A stretch of 64,000 nt of DNA, taken from positions 372,001 to 436,000 of the forward strand of contig NZ_FQYR01000004.1 of NCBI RefSeq assembly GCF_900141815.1, read 5' to 3'. Origin of the DNA: Rubritalea squalenifaciens DSM 18772. GTDB lineage: Bacteria; Verrucomicrobiota; Verrucomicrobiia; Verrucomicrobiales; Akkermansiaceae. The translations under genes were made by a program, and so were the position numbers. The notes under the pieces were generated by a model that saw nothing but the letters and a program-made list of their open reading frames with translations, ran no database searches and was not told where the DNA came from. This document shows positions 5,166-51,767 of this stretch, in pieces (the first letter of the stretch is position 1; each line of letters opens with the position of its first letter).

Positions 5166-5249
5166 TACGGTAGCAGACTTCAAAAGATAGAGCCTGCTGT
5201 CGAGAATGTAATTCCGAGGATTCAGCCACGGTGTTGTCTGAGCCTCTCT

Positions 5250-6611: not shown

Positions 6612-6776
6612 AGACGATTGCGAGTAGTGACCCAGTGATGATTTTCACTTTGAGGATTGAGCAATAGACTGGGTTCTCTAGAATGATGCATTCTCTGGAA
6701 ATATTACACCCCATCATGATTGCACATTTGAGTGGTACACAGAAAATATCTTTATTCTGTCAGGTAATATTTTTAG

Positions 6777-7322
6777 GTGAAATGCCATTCAATAGGTGAA
6801 GTGAAATCTCCGAGACAGCCCAGCCGAGAATATCTGCAACTGATTGCCAGTCATCAGGGGCTGATCTATTCGCATATTCGGAAGATGGTGATGGATGCCC
6901 ATGGGGCTCAGGATGTTCTCCAGGAAACCAATCTGATGCTTTGGCAAAAGTTCGATAAATATGAGATGGGGACCAATTTTGGAGCCTTTGCCTGCAAGGT
7001 AGCCTATTTCAAAGCCTTGGAATACATTCGCAAACGCAAGCGCAGTGAGTTTTTGAGCTTTGACTCGGATATCGTGGAGGCTCTGGGGGAGCAGGCTGAG
7101 GTAGCTTCCGTTGAGCAAGACTACGAGGACGCACTCAATACCTGTATGCAGAAGCTGAATCCAAAGGAGCAGAAGCTATTGAAGATGCGCTATTATGATA
7201 AGGCGACCGTGAGAGGAATTGCCGAGGAAATGGAATGCTCCGAGGGATCACTGCAGCAGTTATTTTTTAGAATTCGGAAAGCCCTGAAAATTTGTATAGA
7301 ACATTCGGTCTCAGAAGCATGA
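6777..7322 (+). CDS. ECF-type RNA polymerase sigma factor
   Basis: The 181-residue protein has region 2 (DVLQETNLMLWQKFDKYEMGTNFGAFACKVAYFKALEYIRKRKR) and region 4 (LRMRYYDKATVRGIAEEMECSEGSLQQLFFRIRKAL helix-turn-helix). It resembles the Rhodopirellula/Verrucomicrobium ECF group. The frame opens with GTG at 6777; a second GTG at 6801 is an alternative start. Its TGA stop overlaps the ATG of the FecR-like gene (ATGA), so the two are translationally coupled. It probably directs expression of surface or polysaccharide-related genes, the divergent sulfatase being the nearest candidate. Confidence 0.92.
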   Translation: MKCHSIGEVKSPRQPSREYLQLIASHQGLIYSHIRKMVMDAHGAQDVLQETNLMLWQKFDKYEMGTNFGAFACKVAYFKALEYIRKRKRSEFLSFDSDIVEALGEQAEVASVEQDYEDALNTCMQKLNPKEQKLLKMRYYDKATVRGIAEEMECSEGSLQQLFFRIRKALKICIEHSVSEA

Positions 7323-12425: not shown

Positions 12426-12504
12426 CGGATGATGGGGAACCTAGGTGTCGTTTCTTTCCTATCGGCTGGACACGAAGTGTCTAAAGTTCTTACAACCCCC
12501 CTAC

Positions 12505-31233: not shown

Positions 31234-31283
31234 GCTGGATTTTTGCTATTTTTCGTAGTGATGACTCACGTATAGTGGGAGAT

Positions 31284-33035
31284 ATGATTTTTAGACTGCT
31301 ATGGTTGTTCGCTCTGGGTATCGGGCTTTGCTATGGGGCGGAGAGGCCGAATGTCATTTTAGTGATGACAGATGATCAGGGTTACGGGGACTTTGGATTC
31401 ATGGGCAACGATTTGATTAAGACTCCGGAACTGGATGCGATGGTACAACGTGGTGCGATCTGGAGTGAGTTTTATGTGAGCCCGGTGTGTTCCCCAACGA
31501 GGGCGTGTCTGATGACTGGAAGATATAACCACCGGACGAAGTGCATTGATACCTATCTGGGTAGGTCAATGATGTCGACTGATGAGTATACTCTGGCGGA
31601 GGCTCTGCGTGATGCTGGCTATGCTACGGGGATTTTTGGCAAATGGCATCTGGGTGATAACTATCCTATGCGCCCCAGTGATCAGGGTTTCGAATATTCC
31701 TTCATTCACAAGGGTGGAGGGCTAGGACAGCCGGCTGATCCCCGTGATAATGCATCACGGTATACAGATGCTCTGTTATTCGAGAATGATCGTGAGGTAG
31801 AGACGCGGGGATACTGCACGGATGTGTTTTTTGGGAGGAGTTTCTCTTTTATGGAGAAGTGCCGGCAGGATGGGAAGCCGTTCTTTGTCTACCTGGCACC
31901 CAACGCGCCTCACTCTCCATTCCACGATGTACCGGTGGAGCTCTATAATAAGTACAAGAAGGTAGATTTCAGTGGAATTATGGTGGGAATAAAGGAAGGG
32001 CAAAGAGCAATAGAGAACGACAAACTGGCCCGTATTGCGGCGATGATTACCAATATCGATGATAATATGGGTAAGTTATTCAAACGTCTCGACAGGATGG
32101 GGGTTACTGAGAATACCATAGTGATTTTTCTAACAGACAATGGTCCAAATACGCGACGATACGTGGGGAGGTTCCGTGGTAAGAAATCCGAGCTTTATGA
32201 AGGGGGAGTTCGGACGCCGCTTCTAATCCAGTGGCCGGGGGGGATCAAACAGGGAACAAAGGTCAAGCATTCGGTTGCTGCGCATATCGATCTCATGCCT
32301 ACTGTGCTGGCTGTGTGTGGGGTTGAGGATTTGCCGCAGAATCTGGATGGGAGAAGTATTCTGTCCCAGCTGAAAGCTCCTTATACGAGTATGGAGGAGC
32401 GCCCGATTATCATTCAATATCATCGTGGTGATGAAATCAGTAAATACCACAGCTGCATGGTGCGAAGGGGTAAATGGAAGCTGGTGCATCCGAGCGGTAC
32501 TCAGAGGGAGAGCTTTGTCGGGGAGCCTAAGTGGGAGCTGTATGATCTGGAGAAGGATCCGGGAGAGGTGAATGATTTGTCAGTGAGCCATCCCGATGTA
32601 GTTGCTGAACTCGTGGCTATCTACGAAGCATGGTATACAGACGTAAGTTCCGAGCGGAAAGATCAGCCAAGCCCGCCATACATTCTCATTGATAAAGATA
32701 AGGAGAATCCTTCAGTACTTACCTGGCAGGACATGATTGAGGGCACGTGGCGGCCTAACAAAGTAGGTTTTTACAAAGTCGATTTTGTGCATGACGGAAG
32801 ATATGACATCCGTTTCGAGGGAGCACATCAGCATAAGATGGATGCCAATAAGAAATGGACAGCTATCCTGCAACTTGGAAAGAAGAGTTACTCTGCCCCC
32901 TTTGATCCCGAGAGGAAGCTGGCCATCTTTGAAGCGCTTTCGATTCCTGCCGGGAAATACACGTTGAAGCCCAAGGTTGTGTCAGATGACGGAGAGGAAT
33001 GGTCGGTCTACCATACGCGCATACTTCATCGCTAA
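31284..33035 (+). CDS. Secreted sulfatase with C-terminal accessory domain
   Basis: The 583-residue protein has a signal peptide (LLWLFALGIGLCYGA). Sulfatase motifs are MTDDQGYGDFGF, CSPTR with the formylglycine Cys69, GKWHLG and FLTDNGP. After the catalytic core (to about residue 470) comes a roughly 100-residue beta domain, often seen in polysaccharide sulfatases. The start ATG 31,284 has a GGGAG ribosome-binding sequence just upstream. It probably removes sulfate from host or algal glycans before the GH20 and GH38 enzymes act. A good operator copy lies in its promoter. Confidence 0.92.
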   Translation: MIFRLLWLFALGIGLCYGAERPNVILVMTDDQGYGDFGFMGNDLIKTPELDAMVQRGAIWSEFYVSPVCSPTRACLMTGRYNHRTKCIDTYLGRSMMSTDEYTLAEALRDAGYATGIFGKWHLGDNYPMRPSDQGFEYSFIHKGGGLGQPADPRDNASRYTDALLFENDREVETRGYCTDVFFGRSFSFMEKCRQDGKPFFVYLAPNAPHSPFHDVPVELYNKYKKVDFSGIMVGIKEGQRAIENDKLARIAAMITNIDDNMGKLFKRLDRMGVTENTIVIFLTDNGPNTRRYVGRFRGKKSELYEGGVRTPLLIQWPGGIKQGTKVKHSVAAHIDLMPTVLAVCGVEDLPQNLDGRSILSQLKAPYTSMEERPIIIQYHRGDEISKYHSCMVRRGKWKLVHPSGTQRESFVGEPKWELYDLEKDPGEVNDLSVSHPDVVAELVAIYEAWYTDVSSERKDQPSPPYILIDKDKENPSVLTWQDMIEGTWRPNKVGFYKVDFVHDGRYDIRFEGAHQHKMDANKKWTAILQLGKKSYSAPFDPERKLAIFEALSIPAGKYTLKPKVVSDDGEEWSVYHTRILHR

Positions 33036-36426: not shown

Positions 36427-39400
36427 CTACAATGTAGGCTTCCAATTTGATTTCTGATATTCAGTGGTTAGCTCTTCAAGAGTGTGACCTGTTAGCTCCT
36501 TCCAGATTCCTTCGTGGTAGGTTTTGTCGCGAAGGGAAGAAGAAACGGTTTTCACGATGGGTTTCTGGTATTTATCCTCCAGATAGAGAAGGAAAGCAGC
36601 TGAAGCCCAATAGGCTCCTAGAGGCTTATTGTAGTTGATGTGCTGGCTGTTGTGCTTTGCCCATCCGTCGTTATTGATCACTTTAAAACGGACATAGTCT
36701 GCAACGCCTTCGATGAACCAACCCGGCCCAGAGTGATTCTGGATGATATGGGTTAGTTCGTGCACGAAGACTCCTTTTGCATCACTCTTATTTCTCCTGA
36801 GATGGCCACTAGACATGGTGATGGTGTCGCCAAAGGCGTGAGCAGGATGCTTGATCTTATCGTTGAAAACGATGTTCACAGTGGTTCTGGTCTTGTGAAC
36901 AGGAGCATCGATAAGGTGAATGATCTTTGGCCAGGCATCGAAGTAGAGGGACGCTATTTCATCAAAGTGTGGTTGTAGGTCTTCAAATCCCTCCATATGG
37001 CCTATCAGTCTGATGGTGTGGTTGGTTCCCTTATAGCGCACTTTGCCAGTCTTGACCGAGAGGGGAGATTGGTCAGTGATTTCAAATTCCCTAACAGCAA
37101 CCCAGTGAGGGATGTCTTGCGTTGCTCTTAGTCTGAAGTGCTTCAAAGGACGTGTGAGCTTTGCTGCCAGTATGCCACCTGTTTCTTGAGCCAGCACAGC
37201 CCATGTTTTACCATCGAGTGATCCTTCTAACACGCCATTATCAAACTGATCACCTCCATCAGGTAAGCCGGTATGGACCACGACAGTCTTACCTCTGGCA
37301 ATTGGTGTACTGAGCTTCAAGTTGATGGTTTCATTTTTGCTCACCTTTCGAGCTACCCAGAAATAGGTGCCTCTATTTCCATCGATGATGTGACTTGCCG
37401 TGTGTTTTCCTGAGGCTGGTAGTTCGGTGGTCAAATTGGTGTTGGTTGAGAGTGCTCCTTCTTTGTGGAACAAGATGCTGGCTGGCAGGTCGCCTGTGCT
37501 TCCACCTGGGGTGGTTACTTTGATATCAAGACGCTCAGCGCCACCTACTTCTAAGTAGCCGATATCGATTGGATAGATGCCGGTCTGCAGTAGTACGGTG
37601 CCTGTCTTTGCGGAGTATCCATGTGGGCCGTCGTGATCAATGATGGTATTGCCGCCAATACGAAGCAGAGACCCATCGTCACTGGCTAGAGAGAAAGTGT
37701 AGGGTCCGGATTGGGGTATTTTGATATAACCGGTGAAACGGCATGCGAAGTTGTCATTCCTCTTGCGGATATCCAAATTAGGAGTCTGAACCACGGAGGA
37801 ACTGACGTCTGATAAAGTAGCAAAATCAGGTACTTTCTTCCACTTACCTTCAGCATACTGGGCAGTGAGGCCGGGTTTTAGGTCAGAGACTTTGATTGGT
37901 GAGAACTTCGAGCAATGGATGGCTGTGATTTCACTGTGGCGATCACTCTTGGCCATCATAGATTTTACTGTGAGCGGCTTATCCACCTTGATTGGGGTGG
38001 TGTAGACTGGCGAGTCCATGGTAGGTTCAGAACCGTCAGTGGTGTAATGGATTTGAAAGCCTTTAGGTGGCTCTTGGAATGTAACACTCGTGCTTTCACT
38101 GAACAGGTGAGTGGTGGCGTTGGGCTCAGGATTTGGTATGCGGTAGTTTACATCCCAGTGATCTAGGTAGCTGAAGTGGTGAGTGAGACGAGATTTGAAT
38201 GAGCGAAGATCTTTCTTGTCTTTGCTAGTCCAAAGAGTTTCAGCCATGGCGATCATGCGGGGCATGACCATATATTCCACACGGTCTGAGGTCTCCATCC
38301 ATTCCGTCCAGACGTTCCCTTGTGCGCCCAGGAATTGCTTTTCGTAAGCACTCCCCATGAATTCCTCTGGCACAGGGTTCCAATTATAAACGCGTTCAGT
38401 AGAGTTGCTGCTGTAAGCATAGTCGAAATAACAAGGGGACATGGGAGTCATGATTACGTTGTGGCCTTTTTTGACCGTCTCAGGTACGGCTCCCATCCCG
38501 ATCCAGAACATGACAGTGGCATTCGGAGCTAGACCGCCGTGGGTAATCTCATCCCAGCCTATCAGGTGCCTGTTGTGGGCATTGATATATTTCTCCATGC
38601 GCCGGATGAAGTAGCTCTGTAGTTCATTGGTGTTTTTAATACGTTCCTTACGCATCTGAGCCTGGCAATGTGGACACTGGTCCCAGAATTTTTTGATAAC
38701 TTCGTCTCCACCGATGTGGATGTATTCGTCTGGGAATAGTGCCATAACTTCGGTCAGCACATCCTCAAGGAAAGTGTAGGTAGCCTCTTTGCCCGCGCAG
38801 TAGGAGTTCTGGCTAGATGGTGTCCAACCTTCGCCGTCATCTTTTAAGTCTCCGCCACAGGCGAGCTCGGGATAGGCTGAGATAGCTGGAAGACTGTGGC
38901 CCGGCATTTCGATTTCCGGGATGACCCTGACATTTCTGAGCTTGGCGTAGGCTACAATTTCCTTGATATCTTCTTGGGTGTAAAAGCCTCCGTACCAATC
39001 GCCGGACTTGAGGTCTTGTTCTGACTTGGGGAATTCTAACTCGGTTACTCTCCACCCTGCAGCTGTGCCTTTGCGGAAGCCGCCCAATTTGGTCAGCTTC
39101 GGATACTTTTTGATTTCCAACCTCCACCCGCCGTCATCAATCAGATGCCAATGAAAGACATTCATTTTATAGGCAGCGAGAAGGTCTATGTACTTCTTTA
39201 CAAAGTCTTTGCCGTAGAAGTGGCGGGATTCATCCAGGTGCATTCCTCTCCACTGGAAGCGTGGGGAGTCCTTGATTTTGACCTCAGGCAAGGTTGCATC
39301 TTGCTTTAGTTCGTCCGGCAGTAGTTGGAGAAAGCTCTGGAATCCATAGAAGTGGCCGGCAGGGGATGATGCTGTGATCGTGATGCCTTTGCTCTGCGAA

Positions 39401-39696
39401 ATCTCGAGCAGGTAGTCTTCTTTTCCAAGTTTTTGATGTGCAGTGGCTTCTAGGAGCCTGATCTTAGTGGTGTCGCCCTTGTGAGTAACAGGGAATCTGG
39501 CGTTTAGAGTTTCCTGACAAAGATCGACTAGAGGAGCAAGATCAACAGCTTCAGAATGGATGGTTAGGGAGGTGCCAAGCTGGAATGACTTCTGGCTTTC
39601 CTGAACCTCCTGAGGTTGTGGAATGATGGTAATAGATGCCGCCTCCATGAGTGGCGGCAAGGCTACTAGTAGCGATAGGAGTGAGTGTTTGTTCAT
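36427..39696 (-). CDS. GH20 beta-N-acetylhexosaminidase fused to PA14, F5/8-type and BSP metallopeptidase domains
   Basis: The 1,089-residue secreted protein has a signal peptide and a GH20b domain. The GH20 catalytic barrel follows, with the Asp-Glu pair in HIGGDEV (Asp331-Glu332). A PA14 domain (about 620-760, ASDDGSLLRIGG) and a discoidin-like module (about 770-880) come next. The last 200 residues resemble basic secretory proteins/bacterial BSP peptidases: VFVHELTHIIQ...GPGWFIEGVADYVRF, where HELTH is the zinc motif. It would remove terminal GlcNAc/GalNAc and may also cut protein. An upstream GTG (39,735) is unlikely. An operator copy lies 80 bases upstream. Confidence 0.9.
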   Translation of the reverse strand: MNKHSLLSLLVALPPLMEAASITIIPQPQEVQESQKSFQLGTSLTIHSEAVDLAPLVDLCQETLNARFPVTHKGDTTKIRLLEATAHQKLGKEDYLLEISQSKGITITASSPAGHFYGFQSFLQLLPDELKQDATLPEVKIKDSPRFQWRGMHLDESRHFYGKDFVKKYIDLLAAYKMNVFHWHLIDDGGWRLEIKKYPKLTKLGGFRKGTAAGWRVTELEFPKSEQDLKSGDWYGGFYTQEDIKEIVAYAKLRNVRVIPEIEMPGHSLPAISAYPELACGGDLKDDGEGWTPSSQNSYCAGKEATYTFLEDVLTEVMALFPDEYIHIGGDEVIKKFWDQCPHCQAQMRKERIKNTNELQSYFIRRMEKYINAHNRHLIGWDEITHGGLAPNATVMFWIGMGAVPETVKKGHNVIMTPMSPCYFDYAYSSNSTERVYNWNPVPEEFMGSAYEKQFLGAQGNVWTEWMETSDRVEYMVMPRMIAMAETLWTSKDKKDLRSFKSRLTHHFSYLDHWDVNYRIPNPEPNATTHLFSESTSVTFQEPPKGFQIHYTTDGSEPTMDSPVYTTPIKVDKPLTVKSMMAKSDRHSEITAIHCSKFSPIKVSDLKPGLTAQYAEGKWKKVPDFATLSDVSSSVVQTPNLDIRKRNDNFACRFTGYIKIPQSGPYTFSLASDDGSLLRIGGNTIIDHDGPHGYSAKTGTVLLQTGIYPIDIGYLEVGGAERLDIKVTTPGGSTGDLPASILFHKEGALSTNTNLTTELPASGKHTASHIIDGNRGTYFWVARKVSKNETINLKLSTPIARGKTVVVHTGLPDGGDQFDNGVLEGSLDGKTWAVLAQETGGILAAKLTRPLKHFRLRATQDIPHWVAVREFEITDQSPLSVKTGKVRYKGTNHTIRLIGHMEGFEDLQPHFDEIASLYFDAWPKIIHLIDAPVHKTRTTVNIVFNDKIKHPAHAFGDTITMSSGHLRRNKSDAKGVFVHELTHIIQNHSGPGWFIEGVADYVRFKVINNDGWAKHNSQHINYNKPLGAYWASAAFLLYLEDKYQKPIVKTVSSSLRDKTYHEGIWKELTGHTLEELTTEYQKSNWKPTL

Positions 39697-39776
39697 CGTA
39701 AATGTGTGTTTCGTTGCGAGCAATAAGCTCTTCACACACTACGTGTCAGGTTCCCTCGATTCGACGAATTGCCGAG

Positions 39777-39793
39777 TGTCTCATTTGGGGACA
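39777..39793. promoter_or_regulatory. Island 17-bp operator, copy 3 (TGTCTCATTTGGGGACA)
   Basis: A match that overlaps the stop codon of the regulator gene, 80 bases before the GH20/peptidase gene, so it could control that gene separately inside the cluster. Confidence 0.65.
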
Positions 39794-40875
39794 GGTGGGG
39801 GTGCGACAGACTTCCCGTTGAAGTATTCCATCAGCAGTAGCTTGTTCTCGCTTGAGAGGGTTTTGGTCTTCAAGAGCTGCCGGATCATTTTTGCCAGTGC
39901 GTTTGCGAGCGACCTGTGATCCGTGCTGTAGAAGCTCAGCTTGGGGTGGAACAATGGGAGCAGTGGATCGGAACCTGCTATGACGACACTGATATCTTCA
40001 GGTATTTTCAAGTTCAGCTCCAATAGTACCGAATAGAGAGTAATTACTGCATCCATACCATTGATGATCACTCCGGTGGGGCGTTCCTTTGAGGTGAGAA
40101 GTTTGTGCAAAATCCCATAGAGTTCCTCGGGGTCGTTTTCCCAGCATGGCGTATTGTAGTTTGCGGAGAATGGTAGCTTTCTCGAACTTAATTCTTCAGC
40201 GAAAGCCTCAATGCGGTTTTTTCTTTTGTAGTGCATCGGGGATGTGATGCGGGTGTGGCCTGCACGGGTGAGTACTCCGATCGCATGCCTGAGAGTAGCG
40301 ACACCGTCATAGGCAAGGTATGGGAGGCGTGACTTGAACGCTGGGCCGCCGCAGATGATCGCTGGAATTTTTTTCTTTTCAAAGTATCTGGCAATGGGCT
40401 TAGAAGCTTCGTAGAGTAGCCAGACATCAGCCTTTGACTGGCTAGTGATGGTATCCAGACGGCTGTCCGGACTAGCCAGATGATAGATGTGATGATGGAG
40501 ATAGGTGACGCTTACCTCATCACTTTTTATGTTGTTAGATAGTTCGCGTAAAAAGTCCTGAGTGCCTGAAGCTAGCTGCTCAACTGGACGAGGCAGGAGA
40601 GTGATGAGAGTTTTGTGCTGGGTGTTTTGCTTTTGCTCGGGAGGAGACTTTCTTACCTTTCTCGGGCATCCAGTCTTGGCCTTGGTTATCGTCCCGTCCT
40701 TCTCAAGTATGTCGAGAGCGTTGCGGAGAGTTCTCCTGGCCACGCCAAGTGTTTTGGCTAGGCGTGGCTCTCCCGGCAGCAAGGGGCCAATTTCCCCATT
40801 GTTAATAGAATTACGTATGGTTTCCACCGTACGTTGCACAAGAGAGTCTGGCCTGGGTACTTTCATACTTAACAT
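39781..40875 (-). CDS. GntR-type winged-helix regulator with LacI-like sensor domain
   Basis: The 364-residue protein has an N-terminal winged helix (residues 10-65, LLPGEPRLAKTLGVARRTLRNALDILEKDG). It is joined to a periplasmic-binding-protein-like domain that binds effector in LacI/GalR regulators (VVIAGSDPLLPLFHPKLSF, then DHRSLANALAKM). It is the only obvious transcription factor in the island. It lies between the two GH20 genes on the same strand, with 84-base gaps on both sides. The likely inducer is a sugar released by these enzymes. It is the best candidate to read the eight 17-bp repeats; no copy precedes its own start. ATG 40,866 is an alternative start. Confidence 0.85.
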   Translation of the reverse strand: MLSMKVPRPDSLVQRTVETIRNSINNGEIGPLLPGEPRLAKTLGVARRTLRNALDILEKDGTITKAKTGCPRKVRKSPPEQKQNTQHKTLITLLPRPVEQLASGTQDFLRELSNNIKSDEVSVTYLHHHIYHLASPDSRLDTITSQSKADVWLLYEASKPIARYFEKKKIPAIICGGPAFKSRLPYLAYDGVATLRHAIGVLTRAGHTRITSPMHYKRKNRIEAFAEELSSRKLPFSANYNTPCWENDPEELYGILHKLLTSKERPTGVIINGMDAVITLYSVLLELNLKIPEDISVVIAGSDPLLPLFHPKLSFYSTDHRSLANALAKMIRQLLKTKTLSSENKLLLMEYFNGKSVAPPPVPK

Positions 40876-40959: not shown

Positions 40960-43605
40960 TTACTTAACTATCATCTCTTTAATTACTAACCAGGCAGTTT
41001 GGTTGGCAGTACACCGAATTCTGATGTGTGATACTTGCTGATTCACTAAAGCACCAGCTTGGCCATCCTTGAAGTTGGCTACCTCCTTCCAGTTTGTACC
41101 ATCTTGGGAAATTTCAAGCACACCGCTCTCAAGTCGGTCACTACCTCCATTCCCTGTAATCACGAGTACTTCTTTTACCAGTTTGTCTGAAGTCACTTCG
41201 AGTGTGAAATGATCTCCTTTTTGTGGGGCGGCTGCTGACCAGAACTTGCTTACTTCAGAATCATCCATCGCTTTCTCTGGTATATTGTCCCCATAGGTTG
41301 GGAGACTAGTTGATATATTTACGGAGAAGACTTCCGGTGGCTTCTTGCTTCTGAGAAGCCAGTCCGCTGGTATAGGCTGCTCCGCCATACGTGAGGAAGC
41401 GATGGTGACGTCAAGCTTGGAAGCGCCTTCACCTTCGAGATAAGCGATTCGTATCGGGTACATGCCTTTCTCCAGATAGACCTTGCTGCTTTCTTTTTTG
41501 TAAGAATGTAGCCCATCGTTATCCACGATTCGAATGCCAGAGATGTCCAGTATCGAACCATCGTCACTACCTAGATTGAAAGTATAGGTGTCGCTTACTG
41601 GTACGCGAATTAGACCTGAATAATCTAGAAGGAAATTTTTCTTACTCAACGCATGGCTGATGGAAATATTGGATACCTGCTCTGTCTGGAGAGGAAGAAC
41701 AAAGCGTGGAGCCGGAATGTGATTCCATTTACCCTCCGTGTAGGAGACCCAGAGTCCGGGCTCAGTTTTGAGGTTATCTAGAGGGTATAGTTCCTTCACC
41801 AGTTTGATCGCCGCCGGATAGCTGTGGTGATCGGCTGATTCAAAACGGGAGATGAGTAGTTTACCGTTCTCTTTGGCTGTAATGGGGCGCTTGGGAGAAT
41901 TGTCAGTGATGGATGGATCTGTCCCATCCAGTGTATATTTTAAGCTGTCAGGTTTTTGAAATCCAGTGACTGGAATTGTGACCGATTTTCTAAAAATAGC
42001 TGTTTTGAATGGTAAGTTTGGGCGTTGGACTTCGAAGTGAATACCCTGGTTGGTCATTCTCCGCTTGTGAGCGTTGACTCGATCAAGAAATGCATCCCAC
42101 TCATTCTCTTCTTGTTTGGGGGACCAGAAGGTTTCCGCGAGAGCTAAAAGGCGAGGGTACATAAGCCAGTCGACATCCTTTTCTCTGGGGATGTATTCGG
42201 TCCAGATACAGGATTGACCCCCGAGGATGTTTTTTGCCTCCTGAGTTGTGAGATTCTGAGATGGATTCCAGAGAAATGAGCGCTTCAGGGTTACGTTATA
42301 GTAGCCGTGACCAGGGAATGAGGCTAGTGGATCATGGTTGTAATTGAGGTAACATTCAGGGAGAGGAGCTGCGATGGTTTTGTAGCCGTCTTTAGCACTC
42401 AGAGTTTCAAAGTTAGAGTTTCTCCACGCCATCATTACGATGTCTTTCGGGGCATTGTGGTCCCTGAGCTCATCCCAGCCAATCGTGGTGATTCTCTTTT
42501 GATCTAGATGCTTCTTGATCTGAAGGGTCATCCAGTCTTGTAGCTTTTTCGGGTCGTCCTCAATTCCCAGCTCTTTCATACGCTGAATAGAATCGGGATC
42601 TTCAGACCAGGCGTTGTGACCCACCTCGTCACCGCCAATGTGCAGGTAGGGCATCGGGAAAAGATCAGTAATCTCATCGAGAACGTCGCACATGAATGTG
42701 ATGCCCTTGTCCGAGGCTGAAATCACATTTGAGTTACCCGCCGTATATTCTGGGTAGGACTTGTTTACCGCGCCGCAATGGCCGGGGAAATCGATTTCAG
42801 GAAGTATCTGGACATGCCTTTTAGCTGCGTAATCGATGATTTCTTTGATCTCTTCCTGGGTGTAGAAACCCCCGTACAGGTTATCATTGTTGATGTACTT
42901 ATCTGGTTCCAGCGTGGAATCTACGCGTGCGCCACGGTTCCTCCATGCACCCACGCTGGTGAGCTTGGGGTACTTTTTAATCTCGATTCTCCAGCCGTCA
43001 TCGTCAGTAAGATGCCAGTGGAACACATTCATCTTTAAGGATGCGATGCGATCGATGAAGCGCTTCACAGTTTCTATATCATGGAAATGCCTGGAGACAT
43101 CCAGATGGGCGCCTCTCCAATGATAACGTGGCTGATCCTCTACCGAGCAATGCGCTATGCTCCAATTGACACTATCTACAGGGCTACTGGAATAGACCTC
43201 AGAAGGCAGTAGCTGGAGTAATGTTCTGGTGCCGTAGAAAATGCCTGCGGGGTGTGAAGCTGTGATTCTTACGCTATTTCCATCAACATTCAGGCTGTAT
43301 GCTTCTCTATTGTTAGGGTTCGTGTTAGTGGTTTGTAGGATGATGTGTGAGCCGCTTTGAACTAAATTATTGTTGAGGGGTCTTAGTGGGAATGGCCAGC
43401 CTGTGGACGCGCGCAGTTGATCTGCCAAGAGTCCGGCTTCATTAGCTAGTGATGGACTGAAGTAGATGGTGGTGGATTTTTTCAAGCTAAGCTTTTTGCC
43501 TTCAGATATCTCAGAGTTTGCTGGAGATGGGATGAGGGTGTGGGCAGTCAAGGAGCTAAAGCAAACCAGTAATGAGCTGGCGATTAGAATAGGTGTATTA
43601 GTCAT
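40960..43605 (-). CDS. GH20 beta-N-acetylhexosaminidase with PA14 and discoidin-like domains
   Basis: The 881-residue secreted enzyme has a signal peptide (residues 1-21) and a GH20b domain. The catalytic barrel holds HIGGDEV (Asp326-Glu327) and an NVFHWHLTDDDGWR segment. A chitobiase-type C-terminal piece, PA14 (LGSDDGSILDISG) and a discoidin-like module follow. It is a paralogue of the 36,427 enzyme without the peptidase domain. It removes N-acetylhexosamine from glycans in the periplasm or at the surface. Two operator copies lie upstream. Confidence 0.92.
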   Translation of the reverse strand: MTNTPILIASSLLVCFSSLTAHTLIPSPANSEISEGKKLSLKKSTTIYFSPSLANEAGLLADQLRASTGWPFPLRPLNNNLVQSGSHIILQTTNTNPNNREAYSLNVDGNSVRITASHPAGIFYGTRTLLQLLPSEVYSSSPVDSVNWSIAHCSVEDQPRYHWRGAHLDVSRHFHDIETVKRFIDRIASLKMNVFHWHLTDDDGWRIEIKKYPKLTSVGAWRNRGARVDSTLEPDKYINNDNLYGGFYTQEEIKEIIDYAAKRHVQILPEIDFPGHCGAVNKSYPEYTAGNSNVISASDKGITFMCDVLDEITDLFPMPYLHIGGDEVGHNAWSEDPDSIQRMKELGIEDDPKKLQDWMTLQIKKHLDQKRITTIGWDELRDHNAPKDIVMMAWRNSNFETLSAKDGYKTIAAPLPECYLNYNHDPLASFPGHGYYNVTLKRSFLWNPSQNLTTQEAKNILGGQSCIWTEYIPREKDVDWLMYPRLLALAETFWSPKQEENEWDAFLDRVNAHKRRMTNQGIHFEVQRPNLPFKTAIFRKSVTIPVTGFQKPDSLKYTLDGTDPSITDNSPKRPITAKENGKLLISRFESADHHSYPAAIKLVKELYPLDNLKTEPGLWVSYTEGKWNHIPAPRFVLPLQTEQVSNISISHALSKKNFLLDYSGLIRVPVSDTYTFNLGSDDGSILDISGIRIVDNDGLHSYKKESSKVYLEKGMYPIRIAYLEGEGASKLDVTIASSRMAEQPIPADWLLRSKKPPEVFSVNISTSLPTYGDNIPEKAMDDSEVSKFWSAAAPQKGDHFTLEVTSDKLVKEVLVITGNGGSDRLESGVLEISQDGTNWKEVANFKDGQAGALVNQQVSHIRIRCTANQTAWLVIKEMIVK

Positions 43606-43995: not shown

Positions 43996-46900
43996 ATGTT
44001 TCCGCGAAAGAAAATAGTCGAACCGAAGGGATTTGCATTAGTGGCCACACTTAGTGTGACTGTGTTGATCATGCTTCTCGCTATGGGCATGCTAAGTTTG
44101 TCAAATCAGGAAAGCAGGATTGCCAGAGACCCAATGGTGGAGGCCCAGGCCAATGCAAGAATGGCCCTGATGATAGCGATTGGTGAATTGCAGGAAGCTG
44201 CAGGGCCGGACCAACGTATCACAGCAAATTCTAATATTTTGGGGTCAGGTGTGCAAAGGGAATATCTGCTTGGGACATGGAGAAGTATAGGAGATGGAGT
44301 GGATAAAACTGATGTTACTGATCTGGCAAATGACTATAGAGATAGTTATTCTGGCAAAGATAGAAATGGGCGCTTTCTGAAGTGGTTGGTCTCCGGTGAA
44401 AAGAAGGATGTAGAAGAGATTGATTTTGTCAAAGTGGAGTCCACGAATAATGAAGTGGCTTTGATCGGGCGCGGTTCGCTCGGTCTAGCACCAGACGCTT
44501 CGGTCTCTGGCGAGCTTGAGCGCAAGATTGTATCAGTGCCAAAGGTGCAAATCACGCAGGATTACCGAAAAGGGGCGTATGCTTGGATGGTATCTGGAGA
44601 GAGCTTGAAAGCTCGCATAGATTTTGAGAGATCAGAGAAAGATGATCGATCAACCCAGTTGGTTGCAAAAGCTGCCCACCCGAATACCAGCCTGGAGGCA
44701 TTTGACGGTCAGGGAGCACCTGCTCTTGCTGGAAAGTTTGTGACTACGGAAGGAGAACTGACTGAGAAATTTGGAAAAACTCATAGCTGGAAAACTCTAA
44801 AATTAGCTGCTGAGCAAGAAGTCGAAGATGGTGATATAGGTTATTATTATCATGATTTGTCAACGAAGTCAGTAGGTGTTCTAACAAATGTTAAGTGGGG
44901 AGGTCTGCGCAAAGACCTTAATATGATGATGGAGAGAGAAGCTTTGCCTCAGGAGATGCAGTTGTCTCCTGACATTGCAGCTCGAGTTTTTGAGGATGGC
45001 CCATTCTGGTATGATCTGAGAAACTATATGAGGGCCTACAAGCCTCTCTCTGAGGGGGGATTGTTGACTTGGGATGGGGATCAGCCCACTTATTCACTAG
45101 GTAATGATTGGCTAGACGTTTGTAGTAGAAGAGGCTGGCAACACCGTATGCCTGTAGTGAGCAAATGGCTGTGGCTAGTTTCATACTTTGGTGATCCAGT
45201 GTCAGCGGATAAGAGCCAGTTGTGTATGGTTGTTCAACCTATCATAGAACTGTGGAACCCTTTCAATATACAACTCTCACTTCCTCCTGATTCTCATTTC
45301 GATTTGAAATTCTGGAGCATGCCGCTTGCATTGAATGTCAGGCAGCCAGGTGTTGGAAACCTCATACAGAATCGGGCATTGCACCATCCTGTCCGAGAGA
45401 ATGAATCTTACGATTCATCTCAGCCTCAGATTGCAGCTCCAACAGTACGCTATGAGGTGAATTTGAAAGACCAATTCGGCAAGCCTAAGTCTATGGCTCC
45501 TGGAGAGGTGGTTCTCTATTCAGACGGTAGCAATAGGCCCAAGCTGCCGAGCTCGAGGGTTATTCCTCTCAATAGAGGTTTCGAGGTTCGCGGTGGCACG
45601 TATTCTGCAAACATTGACCATTATGGTAATAAGCTGGTTTTGGATAGTAACGCTGCGATAGAAGTATACTACACCCGCCGGAATGAATGGTTCTATAGTG
45701 ATAACTACCTTGTCGGTCCACAGGGCTATCCAAACCAATGGTCTTACCAAGCCGACATCATGACTGTAGGGTCAATGAGGGCAACTTCTGTAGATCTTGA
45801 TCCTAATAAATCATTGTTCTCCCTGTCATCGACGTCCAAAGAGGATCCTCAGCCTTCTGTGTTAGTTGGGGCTGTGCTTAAGACGGAGCATTCAATTGCA
45901 GATATCTCCTTAGGTGATGAGCTAACTCTGTCTGAGCAGGTGGATTTTTCTCCTTTCCTCTTTTCTCCACTTACTCTGGGTCAGTGCTTCATCAGAGAGA
46001 ATAATGAGCACCAATTGACGACGAGTCCTTACAATTTCATAGTTCGACGAGTAAATGATTTTGATGACATCAAGCTCGCAATCGATGGTGACAATGGTCA
46101 CTTGGGCCGAAGTGTTGGCGTAGATGGTCAGTCCATGGTACCTGTCAGAGAAATTCCAGTGCAGCCGATTACATCAATGGCTCAGCTCCAGCATTCTGAT
46201 CTAGGTCACTATGCGGCGCGCTATGAACACAACCCCAAAGACCCCAGCCAAATATGTGACCTGAGTGATGACTATGGTACCTACAAGCTTAAGCCCTGGC
46301 ACCTAAAATCACACCCAAACATTAACTATGCATTTGCAAACTCATTTGCGAACCCATTCGTTTCACAGACAGATGTTGAACATAAGGGGGCTTCTCCATT
46401 GGGGGGATTTCATGGAGGTGACAATGGTTATTCTGTCACTTTACATGATAAATCATGGAAGCTGAACGAGGCTTTGTGGGATGACTGGTATACTAGTGGC
46501 TTGGGAAACTGGGATTCACCGCTTGTAGAGGATAAGAAATCCATGTCTCAACTTTTAGAAGAGCTATCTCAAGGTAAGAATTCTCTGCCCAACATGCGTT
46601 ATCATGTAGATGTTATCGACGCTGAGAAAGCGAAACTGGAACTAGAGGGGGATGATGGGTACAAAAAGCTTGCACAGTATCTAACGATTAAAGGTAGCTT
46701 CAATGTAAACTCAACATCGAAGCATGCTTGGAAAGCTTTGCTCAGTGGTTTGAACTATAAAGGCAATACTGTAGCCTTCCTGAATGCCCAGAATGGGGAG
46801 TGGGAGACCGAATCTCTGGATAATGGTTTTGCATTCTCACGTTTCACACTAGCAAACGGTTCCTCAGTGGAGGCCTCAGGTGGGGGGCAGTCTTATTGGC

Positions 46901-47484
46901 AGAAGCGCTGGTTTGGGTCTAGGAAATTAACAAGTTCTGAAATTGATGCCCTAGCTGAAGCAATTGTAAAACAGGTAAAAGCAAGAGGACCTTTCCTTAG
47001 TTTAGGTGAGTTTATGAACCGGCGTTTAGTGGATGGTGAGGATGGTCTCTGCGGAGCATTACAGGCAGCTATTGACGAATCAGGAATCAACAAAGATTGT
47101 GAGGCTGATTCCAAATTATATGATGAAGATTCCGTTGCGGGTTCATTTCAGAACAAAAAGGCCTTGGCTAATCCGAAAGGAATGACCGGGAAAGCTGCAC
47201 CAGGCTTCTTGACACAAGCGGATATACTGATGGGAATTGCGCCAGCTTTATCTGCTCGCTGTGATACCTTTACTGTCAGAGCATACGGAGAAGCCCATGA
47301 TCTTTCTGGGAAAATCGTGGCTAGAGCATGGTGCGAAGCCACCGTGCAGCGAGTACCAGAATTTGTGGACGCGGCTGATGAACCAGTGAACCAAGTAAGC
47401 TCATCACTGAATCCGATCAATCAGAAGCTTGGCCGTAAGATGCGCATGATATCTTTCCGCTGGTTGGCTGAAGATGAAGTTTAA
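43996..47484 (+). CDS. Verru_Chthon cassette protein A
   Basis: The 1,162-residue protein has a prepilin-like N-terminus (KGFALVATLSVTVLIMLLAMGMLSLS). The family-typical NARMALMIAIGELQEAAGPDQRITA segment follows, and then a very long extracytoplasmic part. This matches Verru_Chthon cassette protein A, found only in Verrucomicrobiota and normally encoded with B, C and D pseudopilin partners. None of those lies beside it; a small secreted protein gene follows by 28 bases. The role is thought to be a pilin-like surface or secretion assembly and remains unproven. Confidence 0.85.
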   Translation: MFPRKKIVEPKGFALVATLSVTVLIMLLAMGMLSLSNQESRIARDPMVEAQANARMALMIAIGELQEAAGPDQRITANSNILGSGVQREYLLGTWRSIGDGVDKTDVTDLANDYRDSYSGKDRNGRFLKWLVSGEKKDVEEIDFVKVESTNNEVALIGRGSLGLAPDASVSGELERKIVSVPKVQITQDYRKGAYAWMVSGESLKARIDFERSEKDDRSTQLVAKAAHPNTSLEAFDGQGAPALAGKFVTTEGELTEKFGKTHSWKTLKLAAEQEVEDGDIGYYYHDLSTKSVGVLTNVKWGGLRKDLNMMMEREALPQEMQLSPDIAARVFEDGPFWYDLRNYMRAYKPLSEGGLLTWDGDQPTYSLGNDWLDVCSRRGWQHRMPVVSKWLWLVSYFGDPVSADKSQLCMVVQPIIELWNPFNIQLSLPPDSHFDLKFWSMPLALNVRQPGVGNLIQNRALHHPVRENESYDSSQPQIAAPTVRYEVNLKDQFGKPKSMAPGEVVLYSDGSNRPKLPSSRVIPLNRGFEVRGGTYSANIDHYGNKLVLDSNAAIEVYYTRRNEWFYSDNYLVGPQGYPNQWSYQADIMTVGSMRATSVDLDPNKSLFSLSSTSKEDPQPSVLVGAVLKTEHSIADISLGDELTLSEQVDFSPFLFSPLTLGQCFIRENNEHQLTTSPYNFIVRRVNDFDDIKLAIDGDNGHLGRSVGVDGQSMVPVREIPVQPITSMAQLQHSDLGHYAARYEHNPKDPSQICDLSDDYGTYKLKPWHLKSHPNINYAFANSFANPFVSQTDVEHKGASPLGGFHGGDNGYSVTLHDKSWKLNEALWDDWYTSGLGNWDSPLVEDKKSMSQLLEELSQGKNSLPNMRYHVDVIDAEKAKLELEGDDGYKKLAQYLTIKGSFNVNSTSKHAWKALLSGLNYKGNTVAFLNAQNGEWETESLDNGFAFSRFTLANGSSVEASGGGQSYWQKRWFGSRKLTSSEIDALAEAIVKQVKARGPFLSLGEFMNRRLVDGEDGLCGALQAAIDESGINKDCEADSKLYDEDSVAGSFQNKKALANPKGMTGKAAPGFLTQADILMGIAPALSARCDTFTVRAYGEAHDLSGKIVARAWCEATVQRVPEFVDAADEPVNQVSSSLNPINQKLGRKMRMISFRWLAEDEV

Positions 47485-47512
47485 AGCATACAACGACTAT
47501 TGATTATTGATC

Positions 47513-48301
47513 ATGAAAAGAGTACCTAGTTTATCTTGTTGCATTCTTCAAATTCTAGTTGGGCTGCTTACCATTCTTAATTGTTATACTGTTAACGCTG
47601 AATCTTCAGGAAGGGAGCAAGCGCAAATTGAGCTTAGCATTCTGTCGGTTGGTGGTGGAGATGTTCCCGAGAGGCTACACTGGTTGGATGCAAGTGGTAA
47701 GTTGGCCAAGGATTCAGGAAGTAGCTTGCTAGTCTCTACTTCAACTATTCTGGCTCCGGTTAAGTATACCGGTCCTAAAATCTTGACGATTTGTGTGCCC
47801 GACGAAAGCGAAGCAGGTTTCAAAGTTCTGTCTAAACTAAAGCTGCCCGAAGATTCATCTAAACTAGTGGTTGTACTAGTTCCAAATCGAAAAGCTGACA
47901 ATGAAGCCCAGAGCTACAGGGCGTTGGCATTACCCTCTGATCAAGCTCGCTTTTCAGGAGGCACGCGCATGGTATTAAATTTCACCTCAACTAGATTGAG
48001 AGGGGTGATTGGTAAGACACCTTTTGATCCTAATGCTAAGTCTAATAAGTTTTTTTATGTGGATGCCAACGCTAGCAAATTTATCTCTGAAGTGGATTCT
48101 CATGCCAAGGCTGGAGAAGGATACCAAGTCTATTTGGAATACTATGACCAGACAGACAAGAAATGGGTTCGATTCGTGACTTCCCGCTGGTTTCATAATC
48201 CTTCCAAGAAGAAATATCTATTCGTCTACCAGACTAGGCATAACAACTCTCCTGAATTGAAAGTAGTATCGGAGAAGATCAAACCTGCACAGGTAGAATA
48301 G
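47513..48301 (+). CDS. Secreted protein of unknown function, partner of Verru_Chthon A
   Basis: The 262-residue protein has a signal peptide (SCCILQILVGLLTILNCYTVNA) and a beta-rich body without a recognised domain. It contains SILSVGGGDVPERLHWLDASG and a later EYYDQTDKKWVRFVTSRWF. It begins 28 bases after the Verru_Chthon gene on the same strand, so the two are likely co-transcribed and may act together. The ATG 47,513 is used; a TTG two codons earlier is possible. Confidence 0.65.
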   Translation: MKRVPSLSCCILQILVGLLTILNCYTVNAESSGREQAQIELSILSVGGGDVPERLHWLDASGKLAKDSGSSLLVSTSTILAPVKYTGPKILTICVPDESEAGFKVLSKLKLPEDSSKLVVVLVPNRKADNEAQSYRALALPSDQARFSGGTRMVLNFTSTRLRGVIGKTPFDPNAKSNKFFYVDANASKFISEVDSHAKAGEGYQVYLEYYDQTDKKWVRFVTSRWFHNPSKKKYLFVYQTRHNNSPELKVVSEKIKPAQVE

Positions 48302-48605: not shown

Positions 48606-51600
48606 TTACGAGACCAGCATAAATGTTCTGATGGAGAAAGGATCTATGTCAAAATGTAGGGTTTGGCCGTCAGCTGTTGAACCGTCTATTTCTCTCTCAA
48701 GCAAGTCTGTCTCTCTTAGGCTAGTCACCGGAAGCTGCGTTTGTATCTCAGCGGTGCCTCTGGAGCTGTATGCCTCATAGACCCTCGCTATCAAAGCATC
48801 GGATTTTTCAGCCTTCTTGAGGCTCTCTAGAATAACGCCGGGCCGATCTATGGTTATGAATGAATGTATCCTTGGTAGGCGTGCTTTCTCGTTCATCGTG
48901 TCAGATGACCGTGGTGCTGGTGTGACCAAGAGTGGGCTGTTGAATGCGTATGCTTCCTCGATCACTTTGCCTTGTTGTAAGCTCCCTTTGTGAGGGAATA
49001 GAGAGTATGAGAAGGTGTGCACGCCTCGGTCTGCTTCAGGATCAGGTGCGCAGGCTGATTTTAATAGGGTTAGGCGCATATTGCTGCCATGAATGTCTGC
49101 TCCGTACTTGCAGTTGTTCAGAAGGGCTACCCCGTAGTCGGATTCGCTGAGATCCATCCATTTGTGCACGGGGACTTCAAACTGGGCGACATCCCAGCTT
49201 GAATTACCGTGTGTGGACCTTTCCACGTGTCCGAACTGCGTGTCGTATGTAGCACGTAGGCTGCGCACGTTCACTGGGAATGATACCTTCAGTAGTTTGT
49301 TGCGTTCTTGCCAGTTGACTTGTGTATGAAAATCCACCCTCTTGCTGCCGGCGTTAAGAACGATATCCTGTGATAGATGAGAGTCTCCGAAATGATGCTC
49401 TACTTGCACAGTGACCCTGAGTTCGGAGTGTGCCTTGATCTTTACACGTGTAGTTCCACTGATTTCTTGGGTGCTCTCATTGATGAAATGGTCAATGTCC
49501 CAAGCATTCCAGAAGTTAGGGATGTCCTTGTGTATTTGGAAGACGTTTGCTCTTTGTCCAGGAGTCAAGACCTCTCTCTGCATCTCGTGATCAAAGAGTG
49601 ATATTAGACGTCCATTTTCATCAATAGATACGCTGACAAGACCGTTTGTCAGTTTGATCAATCCATCATCTTCTTGATAGCTTACGGGGGGTAACTCGTC
49701 ATGACTTTGTCCCTGATTCTGATCTATCACTGTGTATCCACAGGGGGGGACGAGGCAATGCATAAGTTCACCATTCGGTAGTTCAACGACTTCTGTGCGT
49801 TCGTGAGACAGTGTGTTGAAGATTCCAGCTGGCTGCTCCATTTTGCCTGTGTCGATCACGGATAGGATGCTCTCCAAGCTCTTGTTTTTTACGGCATCAG
49901 CCAAAGTACGAATGTTGGCGTAGTCTACTTTGCTATCCTGATAGACCCAGTGTATGGATGAGCCTGGGATAATGTCATGGAATTGATTCAAGAGGAGAAG
50001 TTTCCATGCGCGGTCCAGACAGCGAGCATTCATGTCTTTGTCTTTTCCTGTGATATGGGCGTCTACATCCCATACGGGGCGTTGCGTTTCTGGTATAGAC
50101 TCTAACATGCCATCCAGACCAAGCCCCCTAGAAACAGCATCAAAGAATTCAGCATCTCTGAGAAGAAGCTCGCATTCCCGGTTTTTCTGCTTGTTGTATG
50201 CCTGACTGGTAAGAGTGCCTCGATGGAGTTCCAAATAAAGCTCTCCGTTCCACACCGGTAGGTCAATAGCATCGTCTTTTGCTTCGGTGAAGAATTCGGA
50301 GACCTTACCCATTTTGACTTTGGGAAGTCCTTCGAAGTCCTCCCAGCGTCGGCATTTCTCGATGTGATCGATAGTTGGGCCGCCGCCTCCATCGCCATTG
50401 CCAAATGGGATAAGTGCTGCTGTGGCACGATCATTCTCTTGGAAATTATGCATGGAGTGCATCAGGTCTTTAGCCCCCATCTGGCAGTTGTATGTGTCGA
50501 CCGGAGGGAAGTGGGTGAAGATGCGTGATCCATCTAGACCTTCCCACCAGAATGTGTGATGAGGGAATTTGTTAGTATCGTTCCATGAGATCTTCTGAGT
50601 GAGAAACCATTGAATGCCAGCTTTCTGAAGTATCTGCGGCAAGGCTGCGGCGTAACCAAACACATCGGGAAGCCATAGGTCCTTTACCTCAATACCGAAT
50701 TCTTCTTCATAAAAATTCTTGCCGTGGATAAGTTGTCGGATCAGCGACTCACCCGAACTGATATTGCAATCAGCCTCAATCCACATGCCACCAACAGGTT
50801 CCCATTGACCTCGAGCTACCGCTTTTTTGATGTCGGCGTAGATGCTTGGGTAATATTTCTTCATCCAAGAATATTGTTGGGGCTGGGAGCAGGCGAACTG
50901 ATAGTCAGGATATTTCTCCATGTAGCGTAGAGCTGTGGAGAATGTCCGAGCACATTTGCGAATTGTTTCCCTGAGCGGCCAGAGCCAGGCCGTATCGATA
51001 TGCGCGTGTCCCACTGCAGTGATACTGTGGTTCGTGTCACCATTTTTGCGGGACATGACTTTTTCGAGAACTGCACGAGCCGGGACAATCGAAGTTGAAT
51101 CTCCAAGTTCTAAAACAGAGCAAGCCTGGTTTAGTGCACGATAGAGCTGGCCTCGTCTCGGCTCATTATCAGGTAGTGCCAGCATCGCTTCATGGCACAC
51201 CTCGTAATCCAACTTCAGCTGATGTGCTTCTCTATTGAATGTAGCCAGCCTTGCTTTCTCCATGCTGAACAGGGGAGGTGTGGAGTAATCAGGCATTAGC
51301 AAATCGTTGTCACCCCATCCCATCTGAGCTGCGGGGTTGGCAGCGGCTTCGATGTAGAATTCAATTTTCTCTCCGCCCTCGGCATTCTCGATGAGAGGGA
51401 TATCACTTCGCGCTCTATTGATAGCAATGGTTGGCTGACCGTCTATATACACGAGCCCCTCGCGGCCAAAGCCTTCATGCTTGGCGTAACTCAAGTTGAT
51501 AGAGGCAACCACTGATTCACCCTTCCAGTCATCAGGCACTTCAGCACATACACGGAACCATACAGTGTCCCAGATACTGCCCCAACGATCACCTTCATTG

Positions 51601-51767
51601 AATGGAGAGAAGGGTCTTTGTATGGCTTCTTCATAGGAGATGGGTTCGCTTCCTACTTTCATGGCAGATACTTGTAGCGGGATTTCTTTTCCATGTATCA
51701 TCGGCTCGATGATGCGCTCTGGGGTAACTGCGATGCGTTTTTCGTAAACTTGAGTGATCTTCTCCAT
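48606..51767 (-). CDS. GH38 alpha-mannosidase
   Basis: The 1,053-residue protein has no signal peptide and is probably cytoplasmic. An N-terminal domain precedes the GH38 catalytic part, with zinc ligands in GHAHIDTAWLWPLRE (His254 and Asp256). The nucleophile is Asp368 in LWLPDVFGY, and QFACSQPQQY is also seen. The C-terminal beta domains of the family follow, including FEGLPKVK and HDIIPGSSIHWVYQDS. It removes alpha-linked mannose from imported oligosaccharides, such as N-glycan cores. Its presence with GH20 genes points to mannose- and GlcNAc-containing substrates. An operator lies 65 bases before its ATG. Confidence 0.93.
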   Translation of the reverse strand: MEKITQVYEKRIAVTPERIIEPMIHGKEIPLQVSAMKVGSEPISYEEAIQRPFSPFNEGDRWGSIWDTVWFRVCAEVPDDWKGESVVASINLSYAKHEGFGREGLVYIDGQPTIAINRARSDIPLIENAEGGEKIEFYIEAAANPAAQMGWGDNDLLMPDYSTPPLFSMEKARLATFNREAHQLKLDYEVCHEAMLALPDNEPRRGQLYRALNQACSVLELGDSTSIVPARAVLEKVMSRKNGDTNHSITAVGHAHIDTAWLWPLRETIRKCARTFSTALRYMEKYPDYQFACSQPQQYSWMKKYYPSIYADIKKAVARGQWEPVGGMWIEADCNISSGESLIRQLIHGKNFYEEEFGIEVKDLWLPDVFGYAAALPQILQKAGIQWFLTQKISWNDTNKFPHHTFWWEGLDGSRIFTHFPPVDTYNCQMGAKDLMHSMHNFQENDRATAALIPFGNGDGGGGPTIDHIEKCRRWEDFEGLPKVKMGKVSEFFTEAKDDAIDLPVWNGELYLELHRGTLTSQAYNKQKNRECELLLRDAEFFDAVSRGLGLDGMLESIPETQRPVWDVDAHITGKDKDMNARCLDRAWKLLLLNQFHDIIPGSSIHWVYQDSKVDYANIRTLADAVKNKSLESILSVIDTGKMEQPAGIFNTLSHERTEVVELPNGELMHCLVPPCGYTVIDQNQGQSHDELPPVSYQEDDGLIKLTNGLVSVSIDENGRLISLFDHEMQREVLTPGQRANVFQIHKDIPNFWNAWDIDHFINESTQEISGTTRVKIKAHSELRVTVQVEHHFGDSHLSQDIVLNAGSKRVDFHTQVNWQERNKLLKVSFPVNVRSLRATYDTQFGHVERSTHGNSSWDVAQFEVPVHKWMDLSESDYGVALLNNCKYGADIHGSNMRLTLLKSACAPDPEADRGVHTFSYSLFPHKGSLQQGKVIEEAYAFNSPLLVTPAPRSSDTMNEKARLPRIHSFITIDRPGVILESLKKAEKSDALIARVYEAYSSRGTAEIQTQLPVTSLRETDLLEREIDGSTADGQTLHFDIDPFSIRTFMLVS

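Follow-up and report, generated by a model that had tools for sequence, protein, structure and literature searches.

Can one secreted polypeptide both trim the sugars of a glycoprotein and cut its protein backbone? The question is raised by a gene in a 64,000-nucleotide stretch of the genome of Rubritalea squalenifaciens DSM 18772 (the whole stretch is called the window below), in which a hexosaminidase domain of family GH20 is followed in the same reading frame by a metallopeptidase-type domain of the basic secretory protein (BSP) family. The fusion of GH20 and BSP in one polypeptide is real and was confirmed, and it is a new domain combination built from two known families. As to its function, we consider it slightly better than an even chance that the product is a secreted two-enzyme degrader of glycoproteins, in which trimming of N-acetylhexosamine (HexNAc) and cleavage of the backbone would cooperate on the same substrate.

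The fused gene and its two predicted catalytic domains

The gene is a single minus-strand open reading frame (ORF), uninterrupted by stops. Residues are numbered here on the 1,089-amino-acid protein that begins at ATG; an in-frame GTG upstream, at 39735, is a possible alternative start and would give an ORF of 36427-39735 encoding 1,102 amino acids. The features of the gene are as follows.

36427..39696, minus strand: GH20-CHB_HEX_C-PA14-F5/8C-BSP gene, 1,089 amino acids, ATG at 39696 (ORF and Pfam)
39637..39696, minus strand: signal-peptide-like N-terminus of about 20 residues (judged by eye from the sequence)
38224..39633, minus strand: GH20b and GH20 catalytic domain, residues 22-491 (Pfam and site residues)
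37924..38103, minus strand: CHB_HEX_C_1 / Fn3_assoc domain, residues 532-591 (Pfam)
37504..37779, minus strand: PA14 domain, residues 640-731 (Pfam)
37464..37465, minus strand: inferred composite-gene junction, residue 744/745 (the stop of a GH20-PA14 homologue in genome G101 aligns to 744)
37060..37464, minus strand: F5/8C-like (discoidin) domain, residues 745-879 (sub-cut-off Pfam match, alignment and model)
36430..37059, minus strand: BSP (PF04450) metallopeptidase domain, residues 880-1089 (Pfam, alignment and predicted fold)

Eleven Pfam matches were obtained in all (E <= 0.001), among them GH20b (residues 22-143, 78.3 bits), GH20 (PF00728; residues 147-491, 387.5 bits against a cut-off of 22.3), CHB_HEX_C_1 (residues 532-589, 53.0 bits), PA14 (residues 640-731, 58.9 bits) and BSP (PF04450; residues 944-1080, 62.5 bits against a cut-off of 23.8, matching positions 62-207 of the 207-position profile and leaving the first 61 unmatched); no M60-like mucinase family was among them. 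The F5_F8_type_C match (residues 761-838, 20.8 bits) lies under its cut-off of 28.2, and the region containing it is beta-rich in an AlphaFold2 model and 30-38% identical to the F5/8C domains of a neighbouring paralogue and of four F5/8C-BSP relatives. The initial annotation had described a secreted GH20 enzyme with an intact HIGGDEV site that ends in a BSP-type domain carrying HELTHIIQ; both domains and both motifs were recovered, and the N-terminus suggests that the protein is probably secreted.

In the GH20 half, HIGGDEV occupies residues 327-333 and supplies the catalytic pair D331-E332, and the substrate residues R158, D187/D188, H267, W463 and E465 are all present, the roles of these site residues being those we take to hold across the family. 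The same residues are identical in the neighbouring paralogue, which is 35% identical. The closest sequence relative in the PDB is 6q63 (residues 8-591, E 1.9e-126), which we take to be BT0459 of B. thetaiotaomicron; the two share the GH20b, GH20 and CHB_HEX_C region and the D-E catalytic pair, whereas the match stops at residue 591 and the window protein continues with PA14, F5/8C and BSP. BT0459 is described as a GH20 enzyme that acts on antenna N-acetylglucosamine (GlcNAc) of N-glycans, as do other GH20 enzymes on antennae (PMC10154615). Hexosaminidase activity is predicted for the GH20 domain.

In the BSP half, HELTHIIQ starts at H979 and GPGWFIEGVADYVRF contains E996, which gives the motif form HExxH(12)E. 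The pattern HExxH-x(8-16)-EGxAD arose in 0/100,000 shuffles of residues 745-1089, and since the Pfam score is also far above its cut-off, the BSP assignment is not due to chance. H979, E980, H983, Q986, W993, E996, G997, A999, R1003 and Y1029 are invariant in 58/58 aligned rows, namely window residues 745-1089 plus 57 rows picked from the 80 loci of a motif scan of contigs; the invariance of the motif columns stems in part from that selection, because the scan sought HELxH-like and WxxEGxA-like motifs. D1000 is also listed among the residues of the domain.

Structure prediction of this region had been proposed in the initial annotation, with a fold lacking a zinc site as evidence against a peptidase; the predicted fold was that of a zinc-peptidase core. 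The AlphaFold2 model of residues 745-1089 had a mean predicted local distance difference test score (pLDDT) of 85.0, with the BSP part mostly at 90-98. VIA-align was used for comparison because Foldseek alignments were smeared across whole M1 proteins (root mean square deviation of about 18 Å), and it placed the model on the M1 peptidase 6ifg with Z 14.8 and 3.5 Å over 196 residues, with similar values for many M1 chains; no PDB sequence relative of the BSP tail was found at E <= 1. The model, which is zinc-free, suggests an M1-like zinc-peptidase (gluzincin) core without the exopeptidase handle.

In M1 peptidases, GxMEN before HExxH is the exopeptidase motif. The BSP domain lacks it and has HPAHAFG in its place (register set by eye), and the relatives have mostly small residues there, G/A-V/P-A-x-A/T-x-G in the 58 rows, the four commonest letters in the column of the GxMEN Glu being Y20, A20, H8 and E5. 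Because this signature is lacking, the BSP domain is likely an endopeptidase, which we consider a fair inference. Compared with M1 zinc aminopeptidases, the predicted fold and HExxH(12)E are the same, whereas the BSP domain has neither GxMEN nor the other M1 domains and corresponds to the core only. With the plant proteins PR17 and PRp27 and with stand-alone bacterial BSP proteins it shares the Pfam family and HExxH, with E996, R1003 and Y1029 in 58/58 rows; unlike in the stand-alone bacterial proteins, BSP is here the C-terminal module of a glycosidase.

Probable composite origin and rarity of the fusion

How did the two halves come together? The gene looks composite, as if a GH20-CHB-PA14 gene and an F5/8C-BSP gene had been fused at the border between two domains. 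Residues 20-505, 506-600 and 601-744 are 71%, 52% and 55% identical, respectively, to a 746-amino-acid GH20-PA14 protein in a genome from another family of the same order (G101), which ends with a stop exactly opposite residue 744; a BSP segment is missing from it, and no BSP-like motif was found in the surrounding 19 kb. The remainder resembles F5/8C-BSP proteins of two genomes of one genus: against a 363-amino-acid protein of G052, whose start resembles a signal peptide, identity is 36% over residues 745-879 and 49% over residues 880-1089, and against a protein of G058 it is 33% and 43%, respectively. In the BSP tree, the window domain groups with the G052 protein (support 98/82), both inside a clade of seven rows (100/99). 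Two neighbouring genes bear on this origin.

40960..43605, minus strand: second GH20 gene (GH20b-GH20-PA14-F5/8C) without BSP (Pfam; alignment, 35% identity)
39781..40875, minus strand: GntR-HTH and Peripla_BP_3 regulator between the two GH20 genes (Pfam; homologue at a G052 F5/8C-BSP locus)

The second GH20 protein ends where BSP starts in the fused protein. A second F5/8C-BSP locus of G052 holds homologues of the window regulator (33%), of a 1,162-amino-acid protein (37%) and of a 264-amino-acid protein (33%), the last two being 1,143 and 280 amino acids long in G052. Because part of the neighbourhood is thus shared, the fusion may have come from genes that were already co-located; the argument is no more than suggestive, since the window BSP has a closer relative than the protein at that locus. 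The 1,162-residue protein (43996-47484) begins with a weak match to Verru_Chthon cassette A (17.7 bits, far below the cut-off), and its 264-residue partner lies at 47507-48301; their homologues lie beside the BSP gene of G052, at 4758-8186 and 3852-4691 of L261.

Searches for a second such fusion covered several samples. With the BSP tail as query, 10 of 260 genomes of the family matched at E <= 1e-20, and no GH20 plus BSP-type fusion was found among the 260 other than that of the source genome (1/260). For BSP types that match less well than 1e-20, coverage of the family comes from a PF04450 search of 97 genomes alone, of which 25 were positive, the source genome (G000) holding the sole frame longer than 1,000 amino acids. 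Candidates from the family were rejected on three grounds: Pfam shows no GH20 in the genes of G052 (two genes), G030 and G058; the frames of G715, G716, G753, G008 and G754, at 438-463 amino acids, are too short for GH20 and BSP; and the long N-terminal part of a 1,091-amino-acid frame in G290 is antisense to another long ORF, a tRNA synthetase by eye. When the full protein was compared with 288 genomes of the order, 56 had a match at E <= 1e-60, and with at most two candidates scored per genome no listed match extended beyond query position 904 except that of the source gene; G052 has a separate GH20 frame that matches residues 86-904.

Outside the order, 35 of 294 Planctomycetota genomes were BSP-positive. 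Two long frames there, in G1455 (1,583 amino acids) and G1251 (690 amino acids), were rejected as fusions; the rest of each frame is probably read-through, because Pfam shows BSP alone. A third, in G1365, is 1,171 amino acids long with a BSP match of 21.4 bits. Among 296 Bacteroidota genomes 47 were positive, ten matches exceeding 80 bits in frames of 232-367 amino acids; the others (19-30 bits, mostly over profile positions 96-152, the majority in frames of about 700-1,190 amino acids) were not counted as BSP fusions. Viral contigs gave 48 pattern matches and no GH20 relative, and 338 plasmid records matched the protein, none over 80% of its length. A search of the open-licence PubMed Central (PMC) literature found no described fusion of a glycoside hydrolase with BSP.

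An assembly chimera of two genes would fit the absence of a second genome with the fusion among the 260. The joint is, however, in frame at a domain boundary, and the segments have a G+C content of 0.47-0.50, close to the 0.50 of the window. Since the gene lies inside a contig of 723,705 bases, in an assembly of 17 contigs that is 96.7% complete, and has no internal stop, a chimera is hardly credible.

Other sugar enzymes joined to BSP domains

Is GH20 the only sugar enzyme to which BSP has been joined? The initial annotation knew of no described enzyme with this fusion, and this agrees with the literature search; the joining of a glycosidase to BSP is nevertheless not unique in sequence space, since polypeptides with GH92, GH76 and GH16 exist. 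Of 240 genomes sampled at class level around G382, 28 have BSP, and in six genomes of this sample GH92 and BSP stand in one frame: in the order GH92-BSP-F5/8C in G382 (L093), G485 (L098), G552 (L094) and G865 (L258, 5' end cut), and in the order F5/8C-BSP-GH92 in G513 (L095) and G594 (L096, cut by a contig end). HExxH and the downstream Glu were read in five of these and found by pattern match in L258. The occurrence of GH92-BSP fusions in both domain orders is a finding in its own right. A metagenome-assembled genome (MAG) of Verrucomicrobia carries a BSP-GH92 protein (L148, 5818-8796), G599 a BSP-GH76-endonuclease/phosphatase-like protein in a frame of 839 amino acids (L097, 1476-3992), and L169 encodes BSP-3KDH-GH16. 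The same sample contained further BSP frames of 724 (G594:C43) and 695 (G513:C48) amino acids, and an 816-amino-acid frame in G347 was rejected, having BSP only.

GH92 is an exo-glycosidase family known for glycoprotein mannosides. The GH92-BSP polypeptides (family f43, probably Kiritimatiellae, and the Verrucomicrobia MAG) resemble the window protein in combining an exo-glycosidase with a BSP domain that has HExxH and Glu in one chain, and differ in having GH92 rather than GH20 and BSP domains that lie elsewhere on the tree. In a 105-row BSP tree, midpoint-rooted for drawing, a branch with 99/97 support sets all seven GH92 fusions apart from the one with GH20. On the supported branches the GH92 label has to change three times, which could mean a single gain and two losses; by itself this count is no evidence of clustering, because shuffled labels need no more changes and only 10 rows are labelled. 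The tree suggests at least two joinings (GH20 and GH92), probably more, and glycosidase partners of BSP are recurrent but rare.

Among 80 named BSP loci from the contig scan, 11 ORFs exceeded 500 amino acids, and 8 of them (all but L143, L174 and L181) were scanned with Pfam, together with 3 shorter ones. Besides L148 and L169, this gave BSP-3KDH in L117, L171, L136 and L156, BSP with DUF3472 in L146 and L123, an F5/8C match just below the cut-off in L153, and no further family above the cut-off in L112 and L157, the latter with a weak eCIS_core match. Elsewhere, L259 (2273-4282) has an aspartyl protease and BSP, two peptidase types, in one 670-amino-acid frame, and L200 (4030-4857; G078, genus g3, by our guess Akkermansia) has a stand-alone BSP of 187.7 bits in a frame of 294 amino acids.

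Partners that are not glycosidases, the F5/8C-BSP genes without GH20 in G052 and G058 and the separate GH20 frame of G052 would fit a reading in which the two activities are useful side by side, through co-secretion in a fixed ratio or a shared carbohydrate anchor, without cooperating on one molecule. This is decidedly unlikely in our view, given that BSP is paired with both GH20 and GH92, two families able to act on glycoprotein glycans (for GH92, as generally known).

Gene surroundings and proposed function

Which substrate would the fused protein meet? Pfam was run on 20 ORFs of the window, and two neighbours are relevant.

31275..33035, plus strand: sulfatase, the nearest seen to the fused gene (Pfam)
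48606..51767: GH38 alpha-mannosidase (Pfam)

The GH38 gene possibly belongs to the same glycoprotein-degrading repertoire, and sulfatase neighbours, as a hint, fit sulfated glycoprotein substrates. At four near-relative loci of unfused BSP genes (the fifth clade member, L112, was left out), a sulfatase was the next gene of at least 200 amino acids in three (L260, L262 and L111), and at L261 none was found among the genes scanned. Further window genes encode GH77, alpha-amylase-type, endonuclease/phosphatase-like and metallophosphoesterase proteins. Two other proteins of the window are of separate interest: a 1,719-amino-acid protein (12445-17604) with RCC1 repeats (16 matched stretches), TSP3 repeats and a LamG-like domain, and a protein (52005-54044) that combines cytochrome c domains with PA14.

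A chitin-protein matrix, such as arthropod cuticle or similar, could be the substrate instead, GH20 finishing chito-oligosaccharides and BSP freeing chitin from protein. The fused GH20 has a CHB_HEX_C domain, and a BSP-like protein of Andreprevotia ripae with CBM5/12 rises in expression on chitin; the BLAST searches reported there gave its homologues no link to chitinolytic bacteria (PMC8802321). In the 20 window proteins scanned, however, no chitinase or chitin-binding Pfam family exceeded its cut-off, the sole sub-cut-off ChitinaseA_N match lying in a 1,671-amino-acid cadherin protein, the neighbours include the sulfatase and GH38, and 6q63 is presumably an N-glycan enzyme. We consider a chitin-protein substrate rather unlikely, yet a serious alternative.

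On the cooperating glycoprotein degrader that we favour, PA14 and F5/8C would anchor the protein on a glycan or glycoprotein, GH20 would remove terminal beta-linked GlcNAc or N-acetylgalactosamine (GalNAc), and the BSP zinc domain (ligands H979, H983 and E996 and base E980, roles assigned by analogy) would hydrolyse peptide bonds where sugar has been removed. Secretion, glycoprotein substrates and cooperation on one molecule are what we infer; mucin would be one candidate substrate. The initial annotation had the protein trim glycans and cut the backbone: both domains, their catalytic residues and a predicted peptidase fold were found, and the backbone cutting is at present our reading of sequence and model.

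Labelling of the plant BSP protein PRp27 by a hydroxamate probe requires an intact HExxH, the protein is absent from MEROPS, and what BSP/PR17 proteins cleave in plants is given as an open question (PMC9322406); PR17 is described elsewhere as a putative, poorly characterised aminopeptidase (PMC11327054). No assayed bacterial BSP was found in the open-licence PMC literature.

Several observations weigh against cooperation of the two domains on glycoproteins. Proteolysis by the BSP domain is a prediction from sequence and model. Casein and gelatin are reported to be left uncut by barley Hv-PR17, and the suppression of bacteria by PRp27 does not require an intact HExxH (PMC9322406). The full-length model was discarded for a predicted template modelling score (pTM) of 0.45, its GH20 region being poor because only two alignment rows cover it, so that the relative placement of the two sites is not given. 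The fusion was found in one of the 260 family genomes, 69 of the 80 named BSP loci belong to ORFs no longer than 500 amino acids (some cut by contig ends), a glycosidase was found in two of the 11 loci run through Pfam (GH92 in L148 and GH16 in L169), and partners elsewhere include non-sugar families (endonuclease/phosphatase-like and aspartyl protease). Sulfatase adjacency is weak evidence and a hint only, because sulfatases are abundant in these genomes (58 matches in G000, 42 in G058, 117 in G030 and 137 in G052).

Some of these points could mean that BSP binds zinc and does not cleave the substrate of GH20, acting on small peptides, in self-release or in binding only, and that the fusion is a neutral joining. 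The failure of Hv-PR17 on casein and gelatin, the HExxH-independent effect of PRp27 and the single genome with the GH20 fusion are compatible with this, and the regulator and the 1,143/280-amino-acid pair shared with the G052 BSP locus make an accidental in-place joining possible. The catalytic residues are nevertheless kept in the fusion and in 58/58 aligned rows, and sugar enzymes are fused to BSP in other parts of the tree too, with the domains in either order; we judge a neutral joining unlikely.

Bifunctional peptidoglycan hydrolases carry a glycosidase and an endopeptidase in one chain. The GH20-BSP protein resembles them in the general notion that a single chain cuts both sugar and peptide, and differs in families and substrate, its 11 Pfam matches including no peptidoglycan-binding, NlpC/CHAP or M23 family. 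Taken more widely, BSP may be a glycoprotein-directed peptidase family that was repeatedly welded to sugar enzymes (GH20, GH92, GH76 and GH16), with a peptidase step dependent on sugar removal; we hold this as a doubtful generalisation. If it were true, a preference for glycoproteins would account for the failure of plant PR17 on casein and gelatin. The sugar-enzyme/BSP fusions offer a lead to the substrate class of BSP, namely glycoproteins or glycopeptides, and they provide single-gene constructs that allow each active site to be inactivated separately. Should the two steps cooperate, the fused protein would represent a natural solution to the breakdown of glycoproteins that resist proteases.

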